DNA from: Staphylococcus sp. MI 10-1553
GTDB taxonomy: Bacteria; Bacillota; Bacilli; Staphylococcales; Staphylococcaceae
DNA length: 64,000 bases
Assembly (NCBI RefSeq): GCF_010365305.1
Contig: NZ_CP048279.1
Coordinates: 806,001-870,000, forward strand
Reading direction: 5' to 3'
How positions within the stretch are numbered: position 1 is the stretch's first letter; every line of letters starts with the position of its first letter. The translations under genes were made by a program, and so were the position numbers. The notes beneath the pieces are model-generated. The model did not search any database. It saw only the letters and a list, made by a program, of their open reading frames with translations, and had not been told where the DNA came from. Of the stretch, positions 6,069-20,344 are shown in pieces.

Positions 6069-6226
6069 AAAAGATCGATAACCGTAGGGTCTACGGGGAT
6101 AGCTTGGTCAATAAGAGAAACCTCTGTTAGTAAAGAAATACACTTACAAGTACGCTCTATTCCCAAGAAGCTCCCACTTCAAGCGTTAAGAACCTTTATG
6201 TTTTAGCTAAGTGGTGAGTAGTTCAC
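6040..6226 (+). ncRNA. Putative omega RNA (reRNA) of TnpB
   Basis: The tnpB 3' end and the 158 bases after its stop contain a perfect stem (CCGTAG/CTACGG around 6083-6097) and the right-end hairpin. In IS200/IS605 elements this zone makes the guide RNA whose last part reads into host DNA. If the right end is at 6226, the guide would begin GAAAATTTGC. Position is by family analogy. Confidence 0.5.
6171..6218 (+). repeat. IS right-end hairpin
   Basis: CTC-CCACTT (6171-6179) pairs with AAGTGG-T-GAG (6209-6218), with an inner AGC/GCT pair. This fits the right-end subterminal hairpin of IS200/IS605. Confidence 0.6.
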
Positions 6227-6236
6227 GAAAATTTGC

Positions 6237-6242
6237 TATAAT
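6237..6242 (+). promoter_or_regulatory. -10 element of yjcG next to the IS right end
   Basis: TATAAT at 6237-6242. The matching -35 position (about 6214-6219) lies inside the IS right-end hairpin and reads GTGAGT, a poor -35. The native -35 was probably displaced by the insertion. Confidence 0.45.
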
Positions 6243-6273
6243 AAAAGTAAGCGAATACAAAGGAGGAATTCAA

Positions 6274-6780
6274 ATGATTTTAGGATTAGCGTTAATTCCG
6301 TCAAAAGATTTCCAAAGCGAGGTCAACGCTTATCGTAAACGTTATGATAAGCACTACACAATGATTCAACCTCATATTACGATTAAAAGTAATTTTGAAA
6401 TTGATGAAAAAGATCTTGGTCAAGTTAAAGCTGAAATAGAAAAACGTTTAGAAGGGGCACAACCGGCAGATGTCCATGTATCAAAAGCATCAAACTTTGC
6501 ACCGATTACAAACGTTATTTATTTTAAAGTAGAGAAAAATACAGCGTTAGAAGATTTATTCAACCGCTTTGATAGCGAAGATTTTTATGGTAAATCAGAA
6601 CATGCATTTGTACCACACTTTACGATTGCACAAGGTTTAACAAGCCAAGAGTTTGAAGACATTTACGGTCAAGTGCATTTAGCTGGTATTGATCATAAGG
6701 AAACGATTGATACATTATCATTAATGCGTTTTAAAGAGGACGCAGAAGAATGGGAAGAAATTGCTACTTTTTCATTATAA
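6274..6780 (+). CDS. yjcG: YjcG-family 2H phosphoesterase (2'-5' RNA ligase-like)
   Basis: A 168-residue cytoplasmic protein with the two HxTx motifs of the 2H phosphoesterase superfamily, HITIK near residue 35 and HFTIA near residue 115. The superfamily acts on 2'-5' or cyclic phosphodiester bonds; the physiological substrate of YjcG is not established. AAAGGAGG lies 8 bases before ATG 6274, so the upstream in-frame codons from 6211 (inside the IS end) are not coding. It is the usual partner of the yjcH-like esterase upstream. Confidence 0.85.
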
Positions 6781-7017
6781 GACGTTGTGGTGAGGCGTAA
6801 GTGATTCAACAACATGTCTCATTACTTCAAATGTCTTTCTCATTTATGACATGACTGCACGATCACCAAAGTTTTTTAATGAATCAATGCGTTATGTTAA
6901 TTAAACTAAGTCATTTTTTAGGTGTGTGATGTATAAAATTGTTCGGCCGCCTATCGCATTCTATCAAACTACAGGATATTATAAAATTAACAAAAACATC
7001 TGCATTTAATGCACCAA
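6781..7017. other. Intergenic stretch without recognised gene
   Basis: Between yjcG and the terminator at 7018 I see only short frames, including a 26-codon one from ATG 6929 with no good ribosome site. No RNA gene was recognised. It marks the left edge of the accessory block. Confidence 0.4.
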
Positions 7018-7050
7018 CCCCCTTACTTTGGCCGTAGCAAGGGGGTTTTT
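7018..7050 (+). terminator. Rho-independent terminator
   Basis: CCCCCTT (7018-7024) pairs with AAGGGGG (7039-7045), followed by TTTTT. It ends yjcG transcription or isolates hsdM from upstream reading. Confidence 0.8.
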
Positions 7051-7140
7051 ATTGGTGTGAAAAAGCTATGTAAAATGTATCACGCGCTAACGGATAATAT
7101 ACTATAATAGGTGGTAAGAGAGTTAAACGGAGGAAAAGCA

Positions 7141-8706
7141 ATGTCAATTACTGAAAAACAGCGCCAACAACAAGCGGAATTACATAAAAAATTGTGGTCT
7201 ATCGCGAATGACTTAAGAGGGAACATGGATGCGAGCGAGTTCCGTAATTATATTTTAGGGCTCATTTTTTATCGTTTCTTATCGGAAAAAGCAGAAGCAG
7301 AAGTCGCTGAAGCCTTATCAGGAGAAACACTGTCATACGAAGAAGCATGGGCAGATCCAGAATATCGAGAAGACTTAAAAGGTGAATTGTTAGACACAGT
7401 CGGCTACTACATCGAACCGCAAGATTTGTTTAGCACAATGGTGAAGGAAATTGAAAACCAACGTTTTGATATCGAACATTTAGCGAAAGCCATTCGCAAA
7501 GTCGAAACGTCAACGCTCGGTCAAGACAGTGAAGAAGATTTCATCGGGCTATTTAGTGATATGGATTTAAGTTCGACACGACTGGGTAATACTGTTAAAG
7601 ATCGTACAGCATTATTAAGTAAAGTGATGGTGAACTTAGCGGACTTGCCATTTGTACATAGCGACATGGAAATTGACATGTTAGGCGACGCATACGAATA
7701 TTTAATCGGACGTTTCGCGGCGAGTGCAGGTAAAAAAGCAGGCGAATTCTATACGCCACAACAAGTATCGAAAATTTTAGCGCAAATCGTCACATTAGGA
7801 AAAGATAAATTAAGAAATGTATATGATCCCACATGTGGTTCAGGTTCCTTACTGTTACGTGTCGGTAAAGAAACGAAAGTGTACCGTTATAATGGACAAG
7901 AACGTAACAACACAACGTACAACTTAGCACGCATGAATATGTTGTTGCATGACGTCCGTTATGAAAACTTTGACATTCAAAACGACGATACACTCGAAAA
8001 TCCAGCCTTTTTAGGTGAGAAATTCGATGCCGTTGTAGCCAATCCACCATACAGTGCGAAATGGTCAGCCGACAGTAAATTCAATGACGATGACCGTTTC
8101 AGTGGTTACGGCAAACTCGCACCGAAATCAAAAGCCGACTTTGCTTTTATCCAACATATGGTGCACTATTTAGATGACGAAGGAACAATGGCAGTCGTCT
8201 TACCACATGGCGTCCTGTTCCGTGGTGCAGCAGAGGGTGTCATTCGACAATATCTTATTGAAGAGAAAAATTACTTAGACGCGGTTATTGGCTTACCGGC
8301 AAATATTTTCTACGGCACAAGCATTCCGACGTGTATTTTAGTGTTCAAAAAATGTCGTAAATCAGACCACGACGTGTTATTCATCGACGCATCTAACGCA
8401 TTCGAAAAAGGTAAAAATCAAAACCACTTAAACGACGAACACGTTGAAAAAATCATCGACACATACAAAAACAGAGCAACGATTGATAAATACAGCTATG
8501 CCGCAACATTACAAGAAATTGAAGACAATGACTACAACCTCAATATTCCGAGATATGTCGACACTTTTGAAGAGGAAGCACCCATCGACCTCGACCAAAT
8601 TCAACAAGATATCGTGAAAGTAGATGAAGACATCGCGCAAATCGAACAAGACATCGAGGGCTATTTGAAAGAATTAGGAGTGTTGAAGCATGACTCATCC
8701 AAATAA
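7141..8706 (+). CDS. hsdM: Type I restriction-modification methyltransferase HsdM
   Basis: A 521-residue N6-adenine methyltransferase subunit. An N-terminal helical HsdM domain (about 1-140) is followed by the AdoMet fold: motif I DPTCGSGSLL (from residue 229), catalytic motif IV NPPY (residues 301-304) and the GEFYTPQQVS entry motif near 200. The C-terminal coiled region contacts HsdS. CGGAGGAAAAGC precedes ATG 7141, making the upstream codons from 7111 unlikely. It overlaps hsdS by 17 bases, so the two are coupled. No hsdR is present in the window; in staphylococci hsdR often sits at a separate locus. Confidence 0.93.
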   Translation: MSITEKQRQQQAELHKKLWSIANDLRGNMDASEFRNYILGLIFYRFLSEKAEAEVAEALSGETLSYEEAWADPEYREDLKGELLDTVGYYIEPQDLFSTMVKEIENQRFDIEHLAKAIRKVETSTLGQDSEEDFIGLFSDMDLSSTRLGNTVKDRTALLSKVMVNLADLPFVHSDMEIDMLGDAYEYLIGRFAASAGKKAGEFYTPQQVSKILAQIVTLGKDKLRNVYDPTCGSGSLLLRVGKETKVYRYNGQERNNTTYNLARMNMLLHDVRYENFDIQNDDTLENPAFLGEKFDAVVANPPYSAKWSADSKFNDDDRFSGYGKLAPKSKADFAFIQHMVHYLDDEGTMAVVLPHGVLFRGAAEGVIRQYLIEEKNYLDAVIGLPANIFYGTSIPTCILVFKKCRKSDHDVLFIDASNAFEKGKNQNHLNDEHVEKIIDTYKNRATIDKYSYAATLQEIEDNDYNLNIPRYVDTFEEEAPIDLDQIQQDIVKVDEDIAQIEQDIEGYLKELGVLKHDSSK

Positions 8707-9910
8707 AAATGTACCGGAGTTAAGATTTCCAGGGTTTGAAGGTGAGTGGGAAGAGAAGAAACTAGGAGAAGTTCTAACGGTTCTAGACGGTGACAGGGGA
8801 AAAAATTATCCTTCTGGAACAGATTTTTCAGAAATGGAACACACTTTATTTTTAAGTGCAGTTAATGTTACTAAGAATGGTTTTCAATTTAATCAAAGGC
8901 AATATATAACTGAAGAAAAGTCACTTTCAATGGGAAATGGAAAATTAGCTGAAAACGATGTGGTTTTAACAACAAGAGGGTCTATTGGTAATGTAGGTTG
9001 GTATAATAAAAAAATATATAATAAAATTCCCTTTGCTAGAATTAACTCTGGAATGTTAATTTTAAGAACCAATAACGATAAGAAAGCTCAATTTTTAAGT
9101 CATTTTTTAAGAACAACAATAGGTAAAAGAAGAATCCAACTCATTAGCTTTGGTTCAGCACAGCCTCAATTGACAAAAAAAGATATTAAATTATATAAAA
9201 TGCATTTTCCTAATATAATTGAACAACAAAAAATAGGGGAGTTCTTCAGTAAACTCGACCGTCAAATTGAATTAGAAGAACAAAAGTTAGCATTGTTGGA
9301 AGAACAGAAAAAGGGCTATATGCAAAAGATTTTCTCACAAGAACTTCGATTTAAAGATGACAATGGAAATGATTATCCAGAGTGGGAAGAGAAGAAGTTA
9401 GGGGAAGTATACAAAGTAACAATGGGTCAAAGTCCTAAAAGTATTAATTATACAGATGATCATAGCTATCCTGTTTTAGTACAAGGAAATGCAGATTTAT
9501 ATAAAGGTAATATTTATCCTAGAATATATACTAAAGAAACTACAAAATTAGTGAAAGACGGAGATATATTGCTAACTGTAAGAGCGCCAGTAGGAGAAGT
9601 AGGGATAGCTCAATTTGAAGCATGTATAGGTCGGGGCGTCTGCTCAATAGTAGGGGATAAGTTTATTTATTACCACCTAGAATTTTTTAGCCTTCAAAGT
9701 AAATGGCAAAAGTTATCTCAAGGTAGTACATTTGAATCTATTTCAGGAAGCGAAGTTAGAAATGTTGAAGTTTCTATACCAAGTGCAAGTGAGAGAGAAA
9801 AGATAAGTCGTTATTTCACCAAATTAGATCAGTTAATTAATCGACAAACTCAAAAAATTGACTTGCTTAAACAGCGCAAGAAAGGCTTCTTACAAAAGAT
9901 GTTCGTATAA
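8690..9910 (+). CDS. hsdS: Type I restriction-modification specificity subunit HsdS
   Basis: A 406-residue DNA-recognition subunit with the classical two-half plan. Each half begins with a similar motif (ELRFPGFEGEWEEKKLGEV near residue 10; EWEEKKLGEV again near 234), then a target recognition domain, then a helical spacer (FFSKLDRQIELEEQKLALLE near 185-215; YFTKLDQLINRQTQKIDLL near the end). The recognition domains are visibly more AT-rich than hsdM, as expected for recombining TRDs. The two TRDs differ, so a bipartite target is expected; it cannot be read from sequence. Confidence 0.92.
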   Translation: MTHPNKNVPELRFPGFEGEWEEKKLGEVLTVLDGDRGKNYPSGTDFSEMEHTLFLSAVNVTKNGFQFNQRQYITEEKSLSMGNGKLAENDVVLTTRGSIGNVGWYNKKIYNKIPFARINSGMLILRTNNDKKAQFLSHFLRTTIGKRRIQLISFGSAQPQLTKKDIKLYKMHFPNIIEQQKIGEFFSKLDRQIELEEQKLALLEEQKKGYMQKIFSQELRFKDDNGNDYPEWEEKKLGEVYKVTMGQSPKSINYTDDHSYPVLVQGNADLYKGNIYPRIYTKETTKLVKDGDILLTVRAPVGEVGIAQFEACIGRGVCSIVGDKFIYYHLEFFSLQSKWQKLSQGSTFESISGSEVRNVEVSIPSASEREKISRYFTKLDQLINRQTQKIDLLKQRKKGFLQKMFV

Positions 9911-10104
9911 ATATAAAATGTTATTAAACAATAGATATTAAGTGAATGAAAAATCAGATAAGGCTGTCTTTATTTTCAAACAGTATTTTACATTTAATAG
10001 TATTAAAAATCGAAAAAATCATATTTTGCTACAAATGTATGAGGAAAAGTCATATCAATTAGTATTTTCTAACTCATTAAACTATATGAGGGAAGAAAGC
10101 GCAT

Positions 10105-10263
10105 ATGGATAAAAGCACAAATAATTTAGTGAAAGTATACTTTATTAAAGCAATGTACTTTTTCCTGGCAGCTTTTGCTAATATACTCACTATAATTCAA
10201 ACTCAAAACTTTTCTGTTATAATGCTAGGAATTTTCCTATCATTGCACTCCAATAATGATTGA
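10105..10263 (+). CDS. Small membrane protein (52 residues), unrecognised
   Basis: ATG 10105 follows GAGGGAAGAAAG at a usable distance. It opens a 52-codon frame starting MDKSTNNLVKVYFIKAMYF with two hydrophobic stretches (about 12-31 and 36-47) and ends HSNND. I do not recognise a named family. It sits between hsdS and the PerR-box peptide in the accessory block. It may be a genuine small membrane protein or a chance frame. Confidence 0.4.
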   Translation: MDKSTNNLVKVYFIKAMYFFLAAFANILTIIQTQNFSVIMLGIFLSLHSNND

Positions 10264-10330
10264 TAATGATGTGAAGGTAACCTACAGAAGCGTTACAGTT
10301 ATTTTAAGGCGGATAGGTTACATTCTGCCG

Positions 10331-10366
10331 TGTACATTTCTGTTTTTAAATTTATAATGATTATAA
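10331..10366 (+). promoter_or_regulatory. Exact PerR box overlapping a promoter
   Basis: TTATAATGATTATAA (10352-10366) is a perfect 7-1-7 palindrome and equals the published PerR consensus TTATAATNATTATAA; Fur boxes are close relatives. Its left half contains a -10 (TATAAT, 10353-10358), with a weak TGTACA 16 bases upstream. A repressor here would block RNA polymerase for the small gene starting at 10394. Confidence 0.55.
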
Positions 10367-10393
10367 GTTTGTGGATCATAAAAAGCTTTTGAC

Positions 10394-10594
10394 ATGTTCA
10401 TATTCAAAAAATCCCTCATTGCATTGGCGCTGCTTTTAACGCTGATTACTGCTCATATTGCAGAACATCATTTTCAAGTATCTCAAGGTGTTAACGATAA
10501 AAAAAGCAGCCATACGCGACAAACAAAACGTAAACACGTCATTGAAATTTTACTTAAAGGCCCTGAGTATAGTGCCGCAGTTTATGGAATTTAA
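10394..10594 (+). CDS. Small exported or membrane-anchored peptide under PerR/Fur-type control
   Basis: A 66-residue frame: a lysine-containing N-terminus and hydrophobic core (about residues 7-20, signal-like, LIALALLLTLITAH), then a His-containing and basic segment (AHIAEHHF, RQTKRKH). No clear Shine-Dalgarno sequence is visible before the ATG, which lowers confidence. The only cue to function is the exact PerR box 28 bases upstream, suggesting induction by peroxide or metal change. No family was recognised. Confidence 0.4.
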   Translation: MFIFKKSLIALALLLTLITAHIAEHHFQVSQGVNDKKSSHTRQTKRKHVIEILLKGPEYSAAVYGI

Positions 10595-10648
10595 ACATGT
10601 AATGCCTAATATATTGCACGCGTCTTTCTAGCAACAACATATCATCAA

Positions 10649-10694
10649 AAAATCCCGCTACGTTTGCCCAGCTAAACGAAAGTAACGGGATTTT
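10649..10694. terminator. Bidirectional terminator
   Basis: A-rich AAAATCCCG at the left pairs with CGGGATTTT at the right, with inner TTT/AAA pairing. It serves the small plus-strand gene and the minus-strand PTS operon. Confidence 0.75.
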
Positions 10695-10705
10695 AGTTTC
10701 ATTTC

Positions 10706-11599
10706 TTATAATTTTTGTAAAATGCCTAAGCTTGAGAAAAGAATAGCTACGATAATAACGATGAAAATCGCACGCGTTGAGTTCATGTTTTTACGACCTA
10801 ATAACCAATAGACACCGAAAACGACTGCTAATGGTACAAGACGTGGTAAAATCATATCTGCATTTTTACTGAAGTTGACAGTGACATCACCAAGTGTTGG
10901 CTCAAATGCAAATTTCACACGAATCATTGTCGCAACGAGAGCACCCACCATGAAGACACCCATTAATGTTGCTGCATTCGTTAATGATTCTAAACGGTGT
11001 TGCATTGTTGTCACGAGTGAAATCCCTTCTTTATATGCGAATGGCAATTGTTTCCATCTGAAGCCGATAATGAATAAGACTGCAAAGAACCAAAGTAAAA
11101 TACCGAATGGGTTACCGTCTGCTGCCATGTTTGCTGCGATGGCACCGAAGATGGTTGGAATTAATGAACCGAAAATGGCATCCCCAACTGCCGCGAATGG
11201 TCCCATTAAACCGACTTTAATCCCTTTAACAGATTCTTTTGCTTTAAGACCTTCATTTTCTTCCATTGCGATATCAATACCTGTCACAATTGTATTAAAG
11301 TAGTTACTTGTATTGAAGAATTGCGCATGTGTACGCATCATTTCTTTTAATTCAGGTGAGTTATCGCCATAGATTTTACGTAATTGCGGCAAAATCGTAA
11401 ATAAGTAACCAGAACCTTGCATACGCTCGTAGTTCCAACCCCATTGGAAGAATAGTAAACTACGTAAGTTGATTTGACGAAAGTCTTTCTTCGTGAGTTG
11501 ATATGGTTCTTTAGGGGGACTTCCTGTTAATGTTGGATCTTCAAATGGATTGTTTAATGCTAAAGGTTCTTTTGAATTTTTCGTTTTAGAGTTCGTCAT
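10706..11599 (-). CDS. PTS mannose/fructose/sorbose family IID component
   Basis: A 297-residue membrane subunit. The N-terminal soluble part includes FFQWGWNYERMQGSGY and the GLMGPFAAVGDAIFGSLIPT block near residue 130, both typical of EIID of the mannose PTS family, followed by C-terminal membrane segments. It forms the sugar channel with IIC and takes part in phosphorylating transport. The start overlaps the IIC stop by 14 bases. The operon lacks IIA and IIB here, so the phosphoryl-transfer parts must come from elsewhere. Family members import mannose, N-acetylgalactosamine, galactosamine and glycosaminoglycan disaccharides. Confidence 0.9.
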   Translation of the reverse strand: MTNSKTKNSKEPLALNNPFEDPTLTGSPPKEPYQLTKKDFRQINLRSLLFFQWGWNYERMQGSGYLFTILPQLRKIYGDNSPELKEMMRTHAQFFNTSNYFNTIVTGIDIAMEENEGLKAKESVKGIKVGLMGPFAAVGDAIFGSLIPTIFGAIAANMAADGNPFGILLWFFAVLFIIGFRWKQLPFAYKEGISLVTTMQHRLESLTNAATLMGVFMVGALVATMIRVKFAFEPTLGDVTVNFSKNADMILPRLVPLAVVFGVYWLLGRKNMNSTRAIFIVIIVAILFSSLGILQKL

Positions 11600-12485
11600 C
11601 TTCTATTTCCCCCTCATCATCTACACTTGACTGTTGACGTTGTTGACCCGCATATCTTGGTACTGTTTGCGTGCTACGTTGGTAAGCCATTGTTGCTAAA
11701 CTGAACCCGATTAAAGCAACTGCAAGCATTGGAAGTGGGCCCATTGCAGCTGTAAAGTTTTTGTCTAAACCAGCGACTGAAGTACCTAAAGTTGTTAAAC
11801 CACCAAAAATCGTAACGAATAATGCAGTAATGATGAAACCAAGAATAAAGTATGGGTAATGACGTTTTAATGGTAAGTATTTTAATAAGATTGCGAAACC
11901 AACAGCTGGTAAAAGGGCACCTGCTAATGTTAAGCCATCACCTAACCATTTTAAGTCAGTGTTTAAGTAATTTACGACCGGCTTAACGATATTGCTACCG
12001 AAAGTTAAAGCTAAAAACACAGGAACCGCACGTGATAATGACCACGGAATCGCCCCGTATAAGTAGTTGCGTTCAATGGCACGATAGTCCATTTTTTCAA
12101 TTTTGCTATCAATACGATGTGCAAAAAATGTGTTAGTGAAACGAGCTAAAATATCAGTTTGAATCATTAAACTCGCTACCGGCACCCCTAAAGTTGCTAA
12201 CGCTTGTTCTGGATTCATACCAATCGCAACTGAAAAAGCTACCGCTAATACAGTACCTGAGTTGGCATCGATATGAGATGCACCACCAAATGTCCCAACT
12301 CCGAGGATTGTTAACTGCATACCGCCCCCAATAATAAGGCCTGTAGTGACATCACCCATAACGAGACCACTGATAAGGCCGGCCATGACAGGTTGTGCTA
12401 AAAATCCGAATGATAAGTTATCTAGAATTTGGACACCTGCATAGATTGTTAAAAGTAAAACTTGCCACCATAGAATATCCATCAT
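11586..12485 (-). CDS. PTS mannose/fructose/sorbose family IIC component
   Basis: A 299-residue integral membrane permease starting MMDILWWQVLLLTIYAG, with about 8-9 hydrophobic segments and the GGGMQLTILGVGTFGGASHIDANSGT block near residue 55 typical of EIIC (AgaW/ManY type). AGGGAG lies 6 bases before ATG 12485; the TTG at 12491 would leave no spacing. The hydrophilic acidic C-terminus (DDEGEIEDDEL) is at the cytoplasmic end. It is the middle gene of the sulfatase-IIC-IID operon. Confidence 0.9.
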   Translation of the reverse strand: MMDILWWQVLLLTIYAGVQILDNLSFGFLAQPVMAGLISGLVMGDVTTGLIIGGGMQLTILGVGTFGGASHIDANSGTVLAVAFSVAIGMNPEQALATLGVPVASLMIQTDILARFTNTFFAHRIDSKIEKMDYRAIERNYLYGAIPWSLSRAVPVFLALTFGSNIVKPVVNYLNTDLKWLGDGLTLAGALLPAVGFAILLKYLPLKRHYPYFILGFIITALFVTIFGGLTTLGTSVAGLDKNFTAAMGPLPMLAVALIGFSLATMAYQRSTQTVPRYAGQQRQQSSVDDEGEIEDDEL

Positions 12486-12499
12486 TTTCAACTCCCTTT

Positions 12500-12515
12500 A
12501 TGTTAACGCTTACAT
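12500..12515 (-). promoter_or_regulatory. cre-like site in the IIC leader
   Basis: ATGTTAACGCTTACAT matches the CcpA consensus WTGNAARCGNWWWCAW with one mismatch. It lies between the sulfatase gene and IIC. A LacI- or GntR-type operator is an alternative. Confidence 0.5.
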
Positions 12516-12556
12516 CATTTATTTAAACTGAAGCTATATGTGCAGTACATATAGCT

Positions 12557-14074
12557 TTAGAATAAAACAGTGTCATATTGATTGAATGATTGACGTTGAC
12601 GCTGTGCAGATTTGTTTCGCGCTTGTAAATGATCGAGTGTAGGTTTTGTTTCAGGCAAAATCTGCAGTTCACCATTTTTCACAAAACCTTCTTCTCTATC
12701 CGTCAATGCTTTAATCAATTGTTGCTTTAATTCATTTTTAATCGCTTGATGTTCAGCTTCATGAATTAAGTTATGTTTTTCATGTGGGTCATTTTGATAA
12801 TGAAACAATTGTTCTATCCCTCTTACTGGATACCATGTGTATTTCCAAGCTTCATTCATAATAAATTGGTTCGAATCTTTACCGAAACTGTGTTCACCAT
12901 GTAAATATTCGCGTGTCACAAAAGTATCATCATAAAGGGCAGGTTTTAAGCTCACACCATCAATGTTTTTGGGAATGTCGATATTAGCCAAATCTAATAA
13001 AGTCGGATAAATATCTCTTAATTCTCCAATTTGATGTAAATCGTGATGCTTTCCTTTTAATAAGTTGCCTTTATCATAAATCATCATCGGAATGTGAATG
13101 CTCCCTTGATATGGGTACGCTTTTCTGAATAAATTGTGTTCGCCTAATTGATCGCCATGATCAGATACAAATAAAATGATTGTATTTTTCGCGATTCGTT
13201 GTTCATTCAATGCGATAAGGAAACGACCAATTTGGTGATCAATATGTGTGATATTACCGTAATAACCCGCACGCATACGATCCAATTCGTCTTTATGATA
13301 ATGTCCTTTTTTAGCTGTAATACTAAAAGGTAACGGCTCCTCTATATCTTTCCAGTCACCAATCTCAATCTCCGGAAATGCATCTATTTTATTCATATAC
13401 ATATCAAAATAGTATTGGGGCGGATTGAGTGGCGGGTGAGGGCGTGTAAATGAAAGGTTTAAGAAAAATGGTTTTTCGGGGTCTCTTCTTTGTAAAAAAC
13501 GAATGCCTTCATGTACAACCCAGTTTGTAGGATGATACTGTTCCTCATACATCCACGGACGTGCGACCCATGAATTCGGCTCGATGCCATCGTCCATTAA
13601 ATCTGCGCGATGACCTAACTGTTCTTTCAACCACATTAAATAATCGTCAGCATATTCGAAATTTTGACCATACGGTGCGGTGTACTGACGTGCTTCATGA
13701 AGATAACCATCATGCAACATTACATGATCAAAGCCAATACGTTTTCGTTCAGGTGTAACATGTAACTTTCCCACTGCCTCTGTTTGATAGCCTGCAATTC
13801 TAAAACTATCTGCCATAAATTGTTCGTAAGCCCAGTCCACATTGTCTTCATAACCGACCCGACCATGATTCGCTTGTGTCAAACCCGTCATCAGTGCTGC
13901 ACGACTTGCGATACAACTTGGCACAGCAGTATACATTTGATTGAAATGATAACCTTGAGATGCCAACATATCCAAATGTGGCGTTGAAACGACAGGGTGA
14001 TGATGATGACCTAATGTGTCAAAGCGCAGTTGATCTACACAAATGAGGATGATATTTGGTTGTTGTGTATCCAT
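12557..14074 (-). CDS. Cytoplasmic sulfatase (Cys-type)
   Basis: A 505-residue member of the alkaline phosphatase/sulfatase superfamily. C54 lies in CIASR, matching the C-x-[PA]-x-R signature whose cysteine must be oxidised to formylglycine. Metal-site residues are visible in CVDQLRFD near residue 14 and SDHGDQLGEH near residue 320. There is no signal peptide, so it would act on sulfated sugars after PTS import. Start ATG 14074 follows AAAGGAGAG; the upstream codons to 14140 are not needed. No sulfatase-maturating enzyme is encoded in the window. First gene of the operon with IIC and IID. Substrate unknown; sulfated amino sugars are a reasonable guess. Confidence 0.88.
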   Translation of the reverse strand: MDTQQPNIILICVDQLRFDTLGHHHHPVVSTPHLDMLASQGYHFNQMYTAVPSCIASRAALMTGLTQANHGRVGYEDNVDWAYEQFMADSFRIAGYQTEAVGKLHVTPERKRIGFDHVMLHDGYLHEARQYTAPYGQNFEYADDYLMWLKEQLGHRADLMDDGIEPNSWVARPWMYEEQYHPTNWVVHEGIRFLQRRDPEKPFFLNLSFTRPHPPLNPPQYYFDMYMNKIDAFPEIEIGDWKDIEEPLPFSITAKKGHYHKDELDRMRAGYYGNITHIDHQIGRFLIALNEQRIAKNTIILFVSDHGDQLGEHNLFRKAYPYQGSIHIPMMIYDKGNLLKGKHHDLHQIGELRDIYPTLLDLANIDIPKNIDGVSLKPALYDDTFVTREYLHGEHSFGKDSNQFIMNEAWKYTWYPVRGIEQLFHYQNDPHEKHNLIHEAEHQAIKNELKQQLIKALTDREEGFVKNGELQILPETKPTLDHLQARNKSAQRQRQSFNQYDTVLF

Positions 14075-14174
14075 CCAATCTCTCCTTTCTCTATTTAATT
14101 TAAAAATAGCACTAATGGTACGTATTGACAATATGACCAATTTTAAAGGGAATAAGTGAATGATGGGGCTGCTA

Positions 14175-14190
14175 ATGTAAGCGCTTACTT
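14175..14190 (-). promoter_or_regulatory. cre-like operator upstream of the sulfatase operon
   Basis: ATGTAAGCGCTTACTT, a near-palindrome with one mismatch to the cre consensus, sits about 100 bases before the sulfatase ATG. It suggests carbon catabolite control or a LacI-family repressor. Confidence 0.55.
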
Positions 14191-14377
14191 AATTATAAGG
14201 CATTTCAGCTTGTCATGAGTGGTTATGACAAGTTTTGAAAATTTTCGAAAGAATTGTTAGAGTTCAATGTTAACTATTAAATGATGTCTTTTAGTATGGA
14301 CATAATAAAAAAAGAAAAAGTTAAGAAGGATTATAAAATCAAATAGTTCTATGCACTCTAAAAAGTAAAATAAGAAA

Positions 14378-14450
14378 CTTTGTATTGACTTTAAAAAAGG
14401 ATGAGCACCGCTTTGTATGGTATAATATATCTTTGTATAGTATTAAGTGT
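14378..14450 (+). promoter_or_regulatory. Extended -10 promoter with CTTTGTAT repeats
   Basis: TGGTATAAT (14418-14426) is an extended -10. CTTTGTAT occurs three times in phase with it, at 14378, 14411 and 14431. The last two head a 20-base tandem pair (CTTTGTATGGTAT / CTTTGTATAGTAT), two helical turns apart, straddling the -10. This looks like an operator for autoregulation of the kinase operon. The rest of 14191-14570 shows no gene. Confidence 0.5.
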
Positions 14451-14574
14451 TTGGCTAGGATTAGTTAAAAATTATTGTTCACTGAACTATTAGTTTATAC
14501 ATATGGTAATGTGTGATTTTTGATTCGCTTTTTATAATGTAACAATAACGAGTGATTAAAGGGGGAGGAAATTG

Positions 14575-15369
14575 TTGAAAGAATTAACAGAGATTACAAG
14601 TTTCGTTGGAATAAATTTTTCAACTGATCCTTTATATGCCAAAATCGAAAATACGGTTGTTATAGCCAAACACATCGACAATCCGCAAGGCCACTATGCA
14701 TTATTTAATGAATGTATGGGATATGCACTCGCTAAGAAAATGAAGATTCCAACGCCAGAATTTGGATGTGCAATATTTGTAGCAGGAAAAACTATAAATT
14801 ATATTGCATCTGAATATAGAATTAATCATAATGATCTTTTTACGTATACCGTTATGGAGAATTCAGTAGTTCCGATAGAAAACCCGATGCTGACAATGTC
14901 AATAGGTGAAAAAGAGATTGTAAAACTGATAATTTTCGATGTTATTATAACAAATCTTGATAGAAATAAAGGAAACTTACTCATAAAAATGCCTAAAAAA
15001 GGAGAAGAGCCGCGTTTATTTCCTATTGATTACACTCACATTTTTCCTGGGCAATGTATTTGGTTTGATGTCTTGAAGCGACCGTTTCCTAGTACTAAGA
15101 AAATTGTTGAACAAATTTTTGAGCACGGAGGACATCAAAATTTAATTGAAAATAGAAATTTTGATGCTATGCTAATAGACGAAGTAGCTCACGAGTTTAA
15201 AGTGAAATTACAGGGTATTGACATTTCCAGTATAATAGAAAGCGTACCTCAAATACTTCTAAGCCGTTTTGAAAAGAATGATATCGAGAATCTAAAGAAA
15301 TACTTAACAAGAAACATTGAAGAATATGATGATATAATTAAAGAAATTAAGCAATATTTAGTGAGGTGA
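14575..15369 (+). CDS. HipA-like kinase (HipA_2 type)
   Basis: A protein of about 264 residues with the compact HipA-like kinase plan: an ATP-site lysine in VIAKHID (about residue 32), NECMGYALAKKM-IPTPEFG helix, catalytic loop TNLDRNKGN (D near 129) and metal-binding D in FPIDYTHIF (near 152). Start is a TTG; GGGGGAGG favours TTG 14575 over TTG 14572. HipA proteins are Ser/Thr kinases, some of them toxins that phosphorylate translation or replication factors. This short type lacks the N-terminal HipA lobe and is usually found with a small partner instead of HipB. The coding region is AT-rich relative to its core neighbours. The downstream gene begins 5 bases after the stop. Confidence 0.75.
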   Translation: MKELTEITSFVGINFSTDPLYAKIENTVVIAKHIDNPQGHYALFNECMGYALAKKMKIPTPEFGCAIFVAGKTINYIASEYRINHNDLFTYTVMENSVVPIENPMLTMSIGEKEIVKLIIFDVIITNLDRNKGNLLIKMPKKGEEPRLFPIDYTHIFPGQCIWFDVLKRPFPSTKKIVEQIFEHGGHQNLIENRNFDAMLIDEVAHEFKVKLQGIDISSIIESVPQILLSRFEKNDIENLKKYLTRNIEEYDDIIKEIKQYLVR

Positions 15370-15374
15370 GCAAT

Positions 15375-16097
15375 ATGTATAAAGTAAAATACGCAAGTTT
15401 AAATTATTATCCTGATGTTTTATTGATTTCAAATATAGCTGTTGCAGTTGTCTTTCAGGTAGATGGAACTTCTTATCATAAGAATCACTTTAATATTATG
15501 CCAAAAATAAATAAACTTTTTACATTTGATGACGAACTTAATCCGAAATTCACTAAATTATTGTTAAATTCTATTAAAGAAAGCGTATTGAATTTTAAAG
15601 GAGAGTTATCTGACTTTACCTTCAATTATGTGAATAATTTCAAATTCACGAGTATCGAATCTCAAACATTTAATGATTTAAAACAAGTCGAAAAGTTCAT
15701 TGAAAATACGACGCGGTATATATTGCATACTTCAATGAATGAAGATAAAAAAATGACAGAAGATGAAAAGAAAGAATATATCACGACTTATCTTAAACAA
15801 AGATTTGCGAAAGTAAGAAAATCATATAGAGTCATTGGCAAAAATAAGAAAGATAACATAACATTTGATTTCATGGCTGTAGATGAAAGTGGGCAAAATA
15901 TCGGATTTAAAATCATAAATAAATCAAATCAAGCCATGTACAGTATTCGTTCTTTTGCCATGCACGCCATGATTAATAAAGAAAATTTGACATTTATTTT
16001 AGATGAAGATATGAATGATGAAAAAGCGTTTGTTAAAGATTTAAAACAGCCCAATATTATAGCGTTAGATAAAAATGAACTTATAACATTAAATTAA
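15375..16097 (+). CDS. Partner protein of the HipA-like kinase (DUF3037-like N-terminus?)
   Basis: A 240-residue soluble protein. The N-terminus (YKVKYASLNYYPDVLL-SNIAVAVVF) recalls the start of DUF3037 proteins, which accompany HipA_2 kinases, but the rest was not recognised. A charged middle (MTEDEKKEYITTYLKQRF near 125) and a C-terminal segment of about 100 residues follow. GAGGTGA lies 4 bases before ATG 15375, and a GTG nine bases upstream is less well spaced. The tight spacing to the kinase and the terminator right behind it show a two-gene unit. It may regulate the kinase or act as its antitoxin; this is inference. Confidence 0.6.
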   Translation: MYKVKYASLNYYPDVLLISNIAVAVVFQVDGTSYHKNHFNIMPKINKLFTFDDELNPKFTKLLLNSIKESVLNFKGELSDFTFNYVNNFKFTSIESQTFNDLKQVEKFIENTTRYILHTSMNEDKKMTEDEKKEYITTYLKQRFAKVRKSYRVIGKNKKDNITFDFMAVDESGQNIGFKIINKSNQAMYSIRSFAMHAMINKENLTFILDEDMNDEKAFVKDLKQPNIIALDKNELITLN

Positions 16098-16103
16098 TTT
16101 TTT

Positions 16104-16130
16104 ACCGTACTTTTTTGGTACGGTTTTTTT
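16104..16130 (+). terminator. Terminator of the kinase operon
   Basis: ACCGTAC (16104-16110) and GTACGGT (16118-16124) form a perfect stem, followed by seven T. The group II intron begins immediately after. Confidence 0.85.
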
Positions 16131-16131
16131 A

Positions 16132-17919
16132 GTGCGCCCGGCATGGGTAACATCTTGACGGTGAAAGTCCGTTACAGGCTTGGTAGTAGGAACTGTTAGC
16201 GAAAGACAAGGGTGTCCATTGCGAAATGGAATCTGAAGGAAGTCGGACGCAAACACTCGCACTGACGAACAGAAACATCATACTAAGGCTGTGTAGAATG
16301 GATGAATCTGCTAAACAAGATGAAGTCCGATACTACCCGAGTTCTATATAGTAAATGATGCGGTGACATGAGTGGAAAGAGGTTACACCTTACCCGGGGA
16401 GGTCTCATCAGCGGTATTTTTACCGTAGTAACAACGAATGATGAGAGGTCAGCAGAAGTCATAGTAGGGAAAATGTACCGAAGGACTGAACAATATTCAA
16501 TACAAAGTAAAGATTGGAGGTTATAGATTTACGACGTACAGAATACGGTTTTAACCGGCAACTTATGGAAGGATAAGTAGTGGAACGAAAAAGAATACAT
16601 AAGTGTGTACAGTAAATCTTAGGTGAAATGAAAGAAATGTATCGTAAGTCTTCATCTCTGATGGAGCTTGTTGTAAGACCTGACAACATAGAAAAAGCTA
16701 TCAAGAAGGTAAAGAAAAACAAAGGTGCTCCTGGAATTGACGGCATGAAAGTCAGTGAACTCCATGCCCACTTTGCGCAATACTTTTCGCAGATAAAAAA
16801 GAAACTGCTTGATGGTACTTATCAACCTCAAGCAGTTCGAAAAGTTCAAATTCCCAAACCAAACGGGGAAATGCGTGTGCTTGGTATTCCTGTCGCTAGA
16901 GACAGAGTGATACAACAAGCGATTAGACAAGTGATTGAACCAGGCATCGACCGAACATTTTCAAATCATAGCCATGGTTTGTGATTTGAAACAGTGCTTT
17001 GACATGTTGAATCATGATAAGCTCATGTATTTGTTCGAACGTCATGTTCAAGATAAGTCAATTTCTAAATTTATCCGTAGAAGTTTACAAGTGGGTGCTA
17101 TTGACCTATCTGGCGAAGTCGCAGAAAGAAAGATAGGTGCACCACAAGGGGGCGTTATCTCTCCCTTACTATGTAATATCTATCTACATGAACTGGATAA
17201 AGAACTCGAAAAGCGTGGACACCGTTTTGTACGATATGCCGATGATTTTGTTATCTTTGTACGCACAAAACGTGCAGGTGAACGCGTAATGACGAGTGTA
17301 ACGAAATTTATTGAAAAGCAACTGAAGTTGGTTGTCAATGAAGAGAAAAGTAGAGTCGGAGCAGTTACACGTTTAAAGTTTTTGAGTTGTCTAATAACCA
17401 AGGTCAATGGGGTTTATCGTTTCAGACCGACTACGGAAGCAAAAAGAAATTTAATACGCGCCTTAAGGAAAATAACGAAACGAAATAGACCCGGTACCTT
17501 TAAAGAGATTATCACTGAAATCAACCAAGTAACACGAGGTTGGATAAATTACTTTGGCAGAGGTTTTATCAAAGGATTTATTGAAACCACGCAATCTTGG
17601 CTAAACCGCCGACTTAGACAACTCATTCTTAAACGGTGGAAAAGAGTAAGAACTCAATATAAGATGTTACGCCAATATGGTCTTGACCATAGAAGTGCAA
17701 TGAAAATCGCACAGTCTCGCAAAAAGTACTGGCGATTATCGAATACGCACGAGGTTCATCGTGCACTTACAACAAAACAACTCTACAAGTGGGGACTGAT
17801 ACCATTAGCCCAGCTTGCAGAGTTGGCTTACGCAAGGTATTGAACCGCCGAGTACGGAACCGTATGCTCGGTGGTGTGAGAGGACGAATAGTCAGTTAAT
17901 GACTATTCTCCTACTCGAT
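16132..17919 (+). mobile_element. Group II intron with degenerate maturase
   Basis: The 5' end GTGCGCCCGGC matches bacterial group II intron starts. About 490 bases of structured RNA precede the ORF. After the ORF come a domain V-like hairpin (CCGCCGAGTACGG ... GTATGCTCGGTGG, about 17846-17875) and a domain VI stem (GAATAGTCA/TGACTATTC, about 17886-17908). The 3' end near CTACTCGAT (17919) is estimated. It sits directly behind a terminator stem and its T-run, the insertion preference known for group IIC introns; class not proven. Confidence 0.8.
16628..17843 (+). pseudogene. ltrA: Broken group II intron reverse transcriptase/maturase
   Basis: The first frame (16628-16984) carries the RT N-terminus up to DRTFSNHSHG and then stops. 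The second frame (from about 16975 to 17843) resumes at VCDLKQCFDMLNHD and holds the catalytic YADDFVIF, thumb/domain X and a C-terminal region. Intact relatives have roughly 25 further residues (GFRP-x-R... to VVD-x-D) between these points, so a deletion not divisible by three removed RT block 2 and shifted the frame. The downstream frame's own ATG at 16935 gives unrelated residues first and is not a real start. Self-encoded mobility is probably lost. Confidence 0.8.
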
Positions 17920-17944
17920 TGTCCAATAGAAATAAGCAAAACTG

Positions 17945-17986
17945 AAAAGCGAGGTTTAAGTACGCAATGACCGTAACCTCGCTTTT
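17945..17986. terminator. Bidirectional terminator behind ltaA
   Basis: AAAAGCGAGGTT (17945-17956) and AACCTCGCTTTT (17975-17986) form a perfect 12-bp stem flanked by A and T runs. Confidence 0.85.
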
Positions 17987-18006
17987 AAAATATATTTAAT
18001 TGTATT

Positions 18007-19191
18007 TTAATATGCCTGCCGTTGTTTGATGAAATACACGCCATAAAAGAAGGCTAAGAAAAAGATAAGGAGTGCCGCGAAATAAAATGTAAATATGGGA
18101 CTGCCCATAAATTGAGATATTGGACCGCCGAATAATGGTCCGAGCATGGCACCAAAACCTTGGATACTGTTGATGACGCCCCAAGTTTCTTCTTGTTCAC
18201 TTGGATGAATGAATTGTGCCATAAATGTATTCCATGTCGGTAAAAGTAACCCGTACAGTAAGCCGATAAATAGCGCGATAATCCAGACGATGACAATTTG
18301 TTGAATCAATGTTAATGCGAAAATTGCTAAGCCATAAATGATAAAACCAACGAAAATCACACTATACATAAAGCGTGTAGAATAGGCATCAATCATTTTA
18401 GACAAAAACAGCATCGAAATCGTACAACCCATACCGCCAATCACAATAGCAACCGTATATTCAACGGTACTTACACCGACGATATCCACGGCATATTGAG
18501 GCAATACAGGAATGAGCGCACTGATCGCAATCCCTTGAAGTAAAATCCCTGGAAAGAGCACAAGATGACGCTGTGATACGCTCACAATTTGTTTAAGCTG
18601 TTGTTTTACATTTTTCGTATTGTAATCCGTTAATTTGACTTTAACAAAATAATAAAGCACAAAAGCAATCGCTACGCAAAGGGTCATCAAAAAGTTGAAA
18701 TGTGTCGGATGTGCTTTGAAAATTAAATTCATCCCAATCATGCCGGCTAACATCCCAGCAAGCCATGCAAAATAAACGTAACCCATCTGTGTGCCACGTT
18801 TGCTTTCGTCTACACTGGCGAGCATGATGACCCATATTGGACAGACGGCAACACCGAGCATGACAGCACTTAAAATAAGAATCATCGGCGAGGTCGGCAT
18901 CCAAATAATTAAAATGAGACTCACTAAAGCGAGAAAAAAGCCCGAAGTGAGTACAACTTTAGCGCCAAAACGTTTCAACACAAAGCCAACGAAAAAGTTT
19001 GTTATTGAGTCAGAGATAAAATGTATGGAAATTGCAATTGAAGTAATACTAACGGCAATGGTTGTTGCTGTTGGTAATAAAGGTAAATAACTTAAAACAA
19101 ACATTCCTCTTGCAAATTCCATCAGAAATAAAATGACTAATAGGATATAGAAATTCCGCATAGCCATCTTATTTGACAAGTAGTTTTGCAT
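18007..19191 (-). CDS. ltaA: Glycolipid flippase LtaA (MFS)
   Basis: A 394-residue major facilitator with 12 expected membrane helices. It matches staphylococcal LtaA along its length ([10 protein letters not shown] near the start, [41 protein letters not shown] near residue 340). LtaA moves diglucosyl-diacylglycerol to the outer leaflet as anchor for lipoteichoic acid. The start at 19191 (MQNYLSNK) follows AAAGGTG and overlaps the ugtP 3' end, as in other staphylococci. Confidence 0.93.
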
Positions 19192-20344
19192 ATAAAGGCA
19201 CCTTTCCATATACAGTTTCGAATGTTGAAGCGTTGTAAAGTAAATCTAACAAGTCTTGGCATAAACGTTTCGTCGCGTGCGGTTGACGGGCTTCACTCAT
19301 ATTATGAATCATTTGGTCGATTTCGTTTGAGTGACGTGTTAAATGCGTAACAATATCAATCGCCTCTGTAGGTGTGTTCGCAGTTTTCCCAAAACCTTTT
19401 TGTTCAAAATAGAGCGCGTTTTCTAATTCTTGACCTGGCGCAGGATTCAAGAAAATCATTGGTATTTTTCGGGTTAACGCTTCTGAAATCGTAATGCCAC
19501 CTGGTTTCGTAATCATTAAATGACTGGCCGCCATCCATTCATTCATATGTGTCGTATAACCTAAAATAAGCACGTTAGGATTGTCTTTAAACGCAGCGGA
19601 CAATTGACGTTTCAGTTCTTTGCTATGACCACATATCATGACGACTTGTGCATTCTGACTTTCATCAAGTATACGTTGAATCATTTCGTCAAATCCTTTA
19701 GACACACCAAAAGCACCCGCCGACATTAAGATGGTTTGCGCTTCGGGGTCAAGGTGATGTTGACGTAACCAAGCTACGCGATCAATCGGTTCTTCAAATT
19801 GTTCGGAAATAGGAATACCCGTTACTTTAATGCGATCACTTGGAATGCCCACTGATTTAAATTCTTGCTTCAAATCATGTGTGGCTAAATAATAGCGCTC
19901 AGAATTCGGTGTAATCCAGTTTTTGTGCATACGATAATCCGTCATGACTGTCGCAATCGGAATATTCATATTAAACTGCTCGGTCAATACAGACATGACT
20001 GGTGTAGGGAAAGTTACCAAAATTAAATCTGGCTTTTCTTTTAATAGTAAGTTGAGTAATTTATTTAAACCGTAATATTTATAGAAGCACTTATCTAATT
20101 GATCAGGGCGACTATAATAAAATGCTTTATACATACGGCGGAAATACTTAAAACTATTGATGTACCACTTTTTAGTAATCGTTGTCATAATCGGATGTGC
20201 TTCTAAAAACAAATCACGTTGTATGACTGTCAGATTGTCAAGATTCATTTGATTCAACTGTTCAACAATACTGTTCGTCACTTGAATATGGCCGTTGCCG
20301 AATGAACCGGTGATAATCAATATTTTTTTCTTTTCAGTGATCAT
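19169..20344 (-). CDS. ugtP: Processive diacylglycerol beta-glucosyltransferase UgtP (YpfP)
   Basis: 391 residues, the same length as S. aureus YpfP. It is a GT-B enzyme of the MGDG-synthase family: N-terminal [16 protein letters not shown], and the donor-binding block [21 protein letters not shown] near residue 290. It transfers two glucoses from UDP-glucose to diacylglycerol, making the lipid anchor that LtaA flips. ATG 20344 follows GGAGGG; codons upstream to 20401 are excluded. Operon ugtP-ltaA, coupled by overlap. Confidence 0.93.

Follow-up and report, generated by a model that had tools for sequence, protein, structure and literature searches.

We describe a pair of adjoining genes, for a HipA-like kinase and a partner protein, in a 64,000-nucleotide stretch of the chromosome of Staphylococcus sp. 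MI 10-1553 (here called the window; G000:C1:806001-870000 of a 2.9-Mb genome). With a probability of roughly 0.72, the pair is a HipA/DUF3037 toxin-antitoxin unit of the PDC-M66 / DS-6 (HipAD) kind, in which the kinase is the toxin, the partner is the antitoxin and phage infection is the trigger. It is probably a divergent staphylococcal, phage-borne member of that kind, with an ordinary logic. This reading builds on five computational observations: profile family membership, the catalytic residues, co-inheritance, the position as phage cargo, and losses that affect the kinase only. The two genes and the two halves of the partner are as follows.

14572..15369, + strand: HipA-like kinase gene, TTG start, 265 aa (amino acids); proposed toxin
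15375..16097, + strand: partner gene, ATG start, 240 aa; divergent DUF3037 protein; proposed antitoxin
15375..15728, + strand: DUF3037-like half of the partner, residues 1-118 (hhalign 99.6%, 1.9e-23)
15705..16094, + strand: C-terminal half of the partner, about residues 111-240; predicted restriction-endonuclease-like fold

Both open reading frames (ORFs) are intact and lie 5 bases apart on the same strand, which confirms the two-gene unit of an earlier note made from the letters of the window. The likely ribosome site of the partner overlaps the last kinase codons.

Families of the kinase and the partner

The Pfam family HipA_2 matches all 14 members of the kinase family (E <= 0.01), and K33, D130, N135 and D153 (ATP-site Lys, catalytic Asp and Asn, metal Asp) are invariant across the 14 sequences. 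The earlier note had read these residues as kept and the N-terminal HipA lobe as missing; the latter is borne out by an alignment with 2wiu that begins at its residue 153. It had also seen no HipB-type protein, and indeed the neighbour of the kinase is a DUF3037 protein, with no other ORF of at least 70 aa between the sulfatase gene (14140) and the kinase start (14572). A closely similar kinase (P0001, 97% identity, 20 member sequences) is named from Staphylococcus delphini. The kinase matches PHROG 3162 (3.1e-40) and the partner PHROG 7610 (1.8e-70); both are staphylococcal phage families without function. Searching PDB sequences with the kinase profile (E <= 0.01) found nothing.

The partner had been called unrecognised, with a DUF3037-like start and an unfamiliar body. 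For single-sequence searches this stands: the window partner alone has no Pfam, NCBIfam or PADLOC family better than 0.01, and neither it nor 11 members of its staphylococcal and Macrococcus branch match Pfam DUF3037 (PF11236). A family profile, and the UniRef label of branch member P0017 (DUF3037 protein), place it in DUF3037 instead. Four near-identical gut viral contigs (L052-L055), found by the kinase profile, carry a diverged pair: the L052 kinase matches HipA_2 (8.8e-19) and PDC-M66A (4.1e-7), and the L052 partner matches DUF3037 (1.5e-10) and PDC-M66B (1.6e-9). Profile A2, built from staphylococcal and Macrococcus partners only, gives the L052 partner 69.5 bits over profile positions 2-216, and none of 1200 shuffled sequences scores above 9.2 bits. 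Using profile A3, which also includes L052, we retrieved 114 proteins from the database (by hand count, 13 from the branch and 101 others); their precomputed Pfam annotations contain DUF3037 in 69 of the 101 others and no domain in any of the 13. Out of 37 proteins picked from the 101, all match DUF3037 and 29 match PDC-M66B.

By hhalign, A2 aligns with these 37 relatives at 99.7% (E 8.8e-26; columns 1-215 of 245), and nine full-length branch partners align with 99 outside proteins at 99.7% (3.2e-27; 0.8% when the 99 are reversed); the sets stem from a search partly seeded by L052, and the independent part is the relatives' own Pfam DUF3037 match. The DUF3037-like start was correctly recognised, as residues 1-118 align with the DUF3037 family (values listed above). 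Because the branch profile joins DUF3037 relatives over most of its length, the sequence comparison identifies the partner as a divergent DUF3037 protein, with similarity reaching into the supposedly unfamiliar body. No housekeeping family was found for it.

PADLOC reports PDC-M66B for relatives and not for the window partner. Across 299 Bacillota genomes PDC-M66B has one marginal match (8.5e-4), and DUF3037 has one match (G000:C1:2304724-2305041, L004; 22.4 bits, six internal stops), which lies elsewhere in the window's genome and is taken as a relic or chance. The DUF3037 profile found nothing among PDB sequences (E <= 1), and no entry named DUF3037 is among the matches listed for the partner model, which excludes nothing. 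The direct matches of the partner are weak (Pfam Sld5 0.039, NCBIfam Cas1e 0.06, PADLOC Cas1 0.013 and Cas1e 0.016); the Cas1 hint, seen in two libraries, is partial, far under the cut-offs and much weaker than DUF3037. Pfam on the 11 branch partners gave scattered families, the best being DUF1719 (3.2e-4, in 2 of 11).

For the C-terminal half of the partner a restriction-endonuclease-like fold is tentatively predicted, one that lacks the usual catalytic signature. In alignment-dependent counts, D165 is kept in 11/11 branch partners and (D/E)xK at the aligned place is found in 0/11 of them and in 55/101 outside sequences; no nuclease active site was found within the branch. DUF1829, which looked similar by eye, was rejected for this half (hhalign 0.1-0.2% against 12 DUF1829 proteins; no match in the 37 relatives).

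Co-inheritance, phage cargo and loss of the kinase

The layout of the window (kinase gene directly before the DUF3037 gene, no HipB) recurs in viral contigs. A full partner lies directly behind the kinase in 22 of the 23 contigs with the kinase, and the remaining one (L045) ends within the kinase; a full kinase precedes the partner in all 12 contigs with the partner, which are a subset of the 23. The pair is thus co-conserved. In eleven of the 12 the pair shows 99.6% identity or more to that of phage 52A, so the independent cases are far fewer, of about six types. Among annotated phages (some records are duplicates of one phage) the kinase is found in 11 records and the partner in 13, both extra records being phage 80; phages 52A, SAP-26 and others carry both genes. 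For 10 pairs, three of which are close relatives, the kinase and partner distance matrices correlate at r = 0.978 (0 of 20000 permutations as high, best 0.977), which demonstrates joint inheritance but not contact. Neither gene was found in plasmid records. Out of 157 genomes of the order, 8 have the partner and 6 the kinase, and three (G000, G416 and G438) have both whole.

In S. aureus phage 52A the pair (ORF013 and ORF019; about 52% identical to the window pair) lies between ORF007, which agrees in size and sequence with the annotated phage 80 endolysin, and ORF010 on the opposite strand, which we take from its motifs to be a tyrosine-recombinase integrase. Nine of the 11 52A-type viral contigs terminate at the partner gene. 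As judged from gene names read from sequence, the pair lies behind phage lysis genes in a member of the same family but another genus (G402, locus L110), and adjoins suf genes in S. rostri (L113) and S. americanisciuri (L111).

At four loci the kinase is broken and the partner whole. In G419 a deletion leaves the last 42 kinase codons, in S. americanisciuri (G029) the kinase is split into two frames after about codon 209, in G402 it is interrupted by a transposase ORF (presumably IS110-like), and phage 80 (L057 5764-6738) keeps the partner gene with the last 76 aa of the kinase. An intact kinase with a broken or missing partner was not seen among the loci examined. G018 and G409 have a truncated partner and no kinase within 11.6 and 13 kb around; P0014 (short kinase) and P0022, P0023, P0024 and P0026 (short partners) could not be assigned to a locus and do not enter the count. 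The loss pattern, with four broken-kinase loci that keep an intact partner and none of the reverse, fits what a toxin-antitoxin pair would leave behind, the kinase being the toxin and the partner the antitoxin. We note that phage 80 is a natural partner-only phage to compare with phage 52A.

Proposed function and alternatives

For the window pair we infer toxicity, neutralisation, trigger, target and defence along the following lines. The free kinase would phosphorylate an essential host protein and halt growth; the partner, translated directly behind it, would bind the kinase and keep it silent. Phage infection would disturb the complex and release the kinase, such that the infected cell halts before phage production. 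Staphylococcal temperate phages carry the unit as cargo beside the integrase, presumably excluding rival phages from the lysogen, and the window copy occupies a variable spot of the chromosome.

The original DS-6 report is reportedly that of Brenes and Laub in 2025. Retron-Sda1 carries HipA and DUF3037 genes (PADLOC name of the pair, PDC-M66); deletion of the kinase abolishes defence against Bas51, deletion of DUF3037 is toxic, and the reverse transcriptase (RT) and non-coding RNA are dispensable (PMC12548924). In DS-6A/DS-6B, renamed HipAD, DS-6B has DUF3037 and DUF1829, and a kinase mutant loses defence (PMC13092281). The roles we propose parallel those shown for the Retron-Sda1 pair and proposed for DS-6/HipAD. 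As described there, DS-6/HipAD shares with the window pair a HipA-related kinase gene, a DUF3037 gene, the absence of HipB and a phage or prophage setting; phage defence was tested there, whereas the window pair is known from its sequence. The Retron-Sda1 pair belongs to the same two families, and the PDC-M66B matches among the partner's relatives point the same way, but it sits within a retron operon and the window pair has no adjacent retron. As compared to PDC-M66 itself, the window kinase matches PDC-M66A weakly (2.1e-4) and the window partner does not match PDC-M66B. Classical HipAB differs in having the N-terminal HipA lobe and a HipB-type DNA-binding partner. CtkA of Helicobacter pylori shares 12% identity with the window kinase, and we know of no DUF3037 partner for it.

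Profile homology to a tested family, co-inheritance, phage carriage and the broken-kinase loci support the class proposed earlier, a toxin-antitoxin or defence pair without HipB. The description as a poorly described system is half right: HipA/DUF3037 pairs are already published (PDC-M66, DS-6 = HipAD and Retron-Sda1, the last two with phage-defence data), and the literature searched yielded no study of their staphylococcal branch. Our results add staphylococci and their temperate phages to the range of a defence family that has been tested in other bacteria. The Pfam, NCBIfam and PADLOC models miss the staphylococcal partner, and a profile built from the branch would find more. The proposal gives a testable function to the integrase-adjacent gene pair of S. 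aureus phage 52A and its relatives, as well as to the partner gene that stands alone in phage 80.

Several points weigh against the toxin-antitoxin reading. The near-identity of the contigs cuts the independent cases of co-inheritance, and four broken kinases versus none of the reverse is a small sample. The kinase loss in G419 is recent and says little about selection, since identity to the window is 99.3% over the 892-bp segment that G419 retains and 93.2-95.6% in the flanks. The window kinase scores 24.5 bits against HipA_2, slightly below the cut-off (27), and its PADLOC match to PDC-M03A (1.2e-4) is slightly better than that to PDC-M66A. DS-6B is described as having DUF1829, which was not found in the window partner.

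A more elaborate proposal, on the unlikely side when taken as a whole, makes the partner a two-part sensor and antitoxin. Its DUF3037 half would restrain the kinase, and its non-cutting nuclease-fold half would read a phage signal (incoming DNA or a phage DNA-binding protein) and free the kinase. The C-terminal half would be an exchangeable sensor across the HipA/DUF3037 class (DUF1829 in DS-6B, a DNA-binding-like tail in the retron Sda1 and a dead nuclease fold in the window partner). For staphylococcal temperate phages it would be a means of superinfection exclusion.

It is unlikely that the kinase is a non-toxic regulator, directed by the partner as adaptor or substrate, that tunes lysogeny or superinfection by modifying a protein of the host or the phage. 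Such a regulator would account for the position as phage cargo, co-inheritance would appear identical, and the partner is the larger unknown; yet the kinase is what is lost in the four broken loci, never the partner alone, and in the related Retron-Sda1 operon toxicity follows when the DUF3037 gene is lost (PMC12548924). Very unlikely is a decaying, horizontally acquired remnant with no present function in the window's genome. The patchy distribution in the order, decayed copies among close relatives (G419) and the neighbouring group II intron with its split RT ORF agree with decay, but neither window ORF is broken, the catalytic residues are conserved, and other records contain near-identical copies (P0001). 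In many database entries the kinase carries the name phosphatidylinositol kinase, which probably follows the superfamily, and a lipid kinase is hardly credible given the HipA_2 matches throughout the family, the fold shared with CtkA and HipA (which are protein kinases), and a DUF3037 pairing that is that of the tested HipA pairs.

Chromosomal site and further observations

In G024, G437, G005 and G007 the counterpart of 6211-6780 (a 2H-type protein gene, read from sequence) adjoins ltaA (18007-19209 in the window), about 60 to 870 bp apart, and in G015 and G030 phosphotransferase system (PTS)/sulfatase genes adjoin ltaA without the pair. In the window, the 11 kb between the 2H-type gene and ltaA hold hsdM-hsdS, PTS/sulfatase genes, the pair and a group II intron. 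Because relatives have this spot nearly empty or with PTS/sulfatase genes only, the comparison marks the pair as an accessory insertion beginning near 14247, in a variable spot (6780-18007) shared with the type I modification pair. At other places the genome has three HsdR-type genes. Two candidate signals flank the pair.

14418..14426, + strand: possible extended -10 (TGnTATAAT), read from the sequence; not established
16104..16124, + strand: terminator-like hairpin, then a T-tract, from a sequence scan

The earlier note had given the pair its own promoter and terminator. The hairpin and T-tract behind the pair agree with the latter; one terminator-like site is about the chance expectation for this stretch, so its support comes from position and not from number. 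A promoter at the extended -10 is plausible from the letters, and this motif is absent from the computed signal list. A direct repeat (TTTGTAT and similar flanks, at 14412 and 14432, 20 bases apart; 14412-14450) spans the possible -10 and has an operator-like look; a conserved operator was rejected, as no similar repeat was seen by eye upstream of 11 other loci.

The group II intron (Rfam group-II-D1D4 matches) lies directly behind the T-tract, and comparison with the intron-free locus of G419 places its ends at 16132 and 17919. Its RT is split across two ORFs (16628-16984 and 16935-17843). Group IIC introns typically insert behind a terminator.

More distant kinase and partner pairs were seen in the viral contigs L082 (5697-7540) and L083 (5848-7700), in a 3.5-kb E. 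coli plasmid (L117 148-1835) with three annotated genes (HipA family kinase, partner and VbhA-like antitoxin), and in a Pseudomonas phage (L118 2117-3870), where two hypothetical genes adjoin each other behind cI and the second is related to the L083 partner. The DUF3037 link is weak for all four partners. Loci L082-L086 have a HipA-like kinase by profile (5/5) and no match to two partner profiles (0/5), and were left out of the membership count. A gene of 299 aa (L082) or 303 aa (L083) follows the kinase, with 23% by hhalign between the two; the L083 gene has weak matches (Pfam DUF3037 0.12, PDC-M66B 0.0063) and the L082 gene matches neither. Elsewhere in the window, Rfam rli28, a small RNA family named from Listeria, matches positions 72-258 (75.6 bits, cut-off 45).
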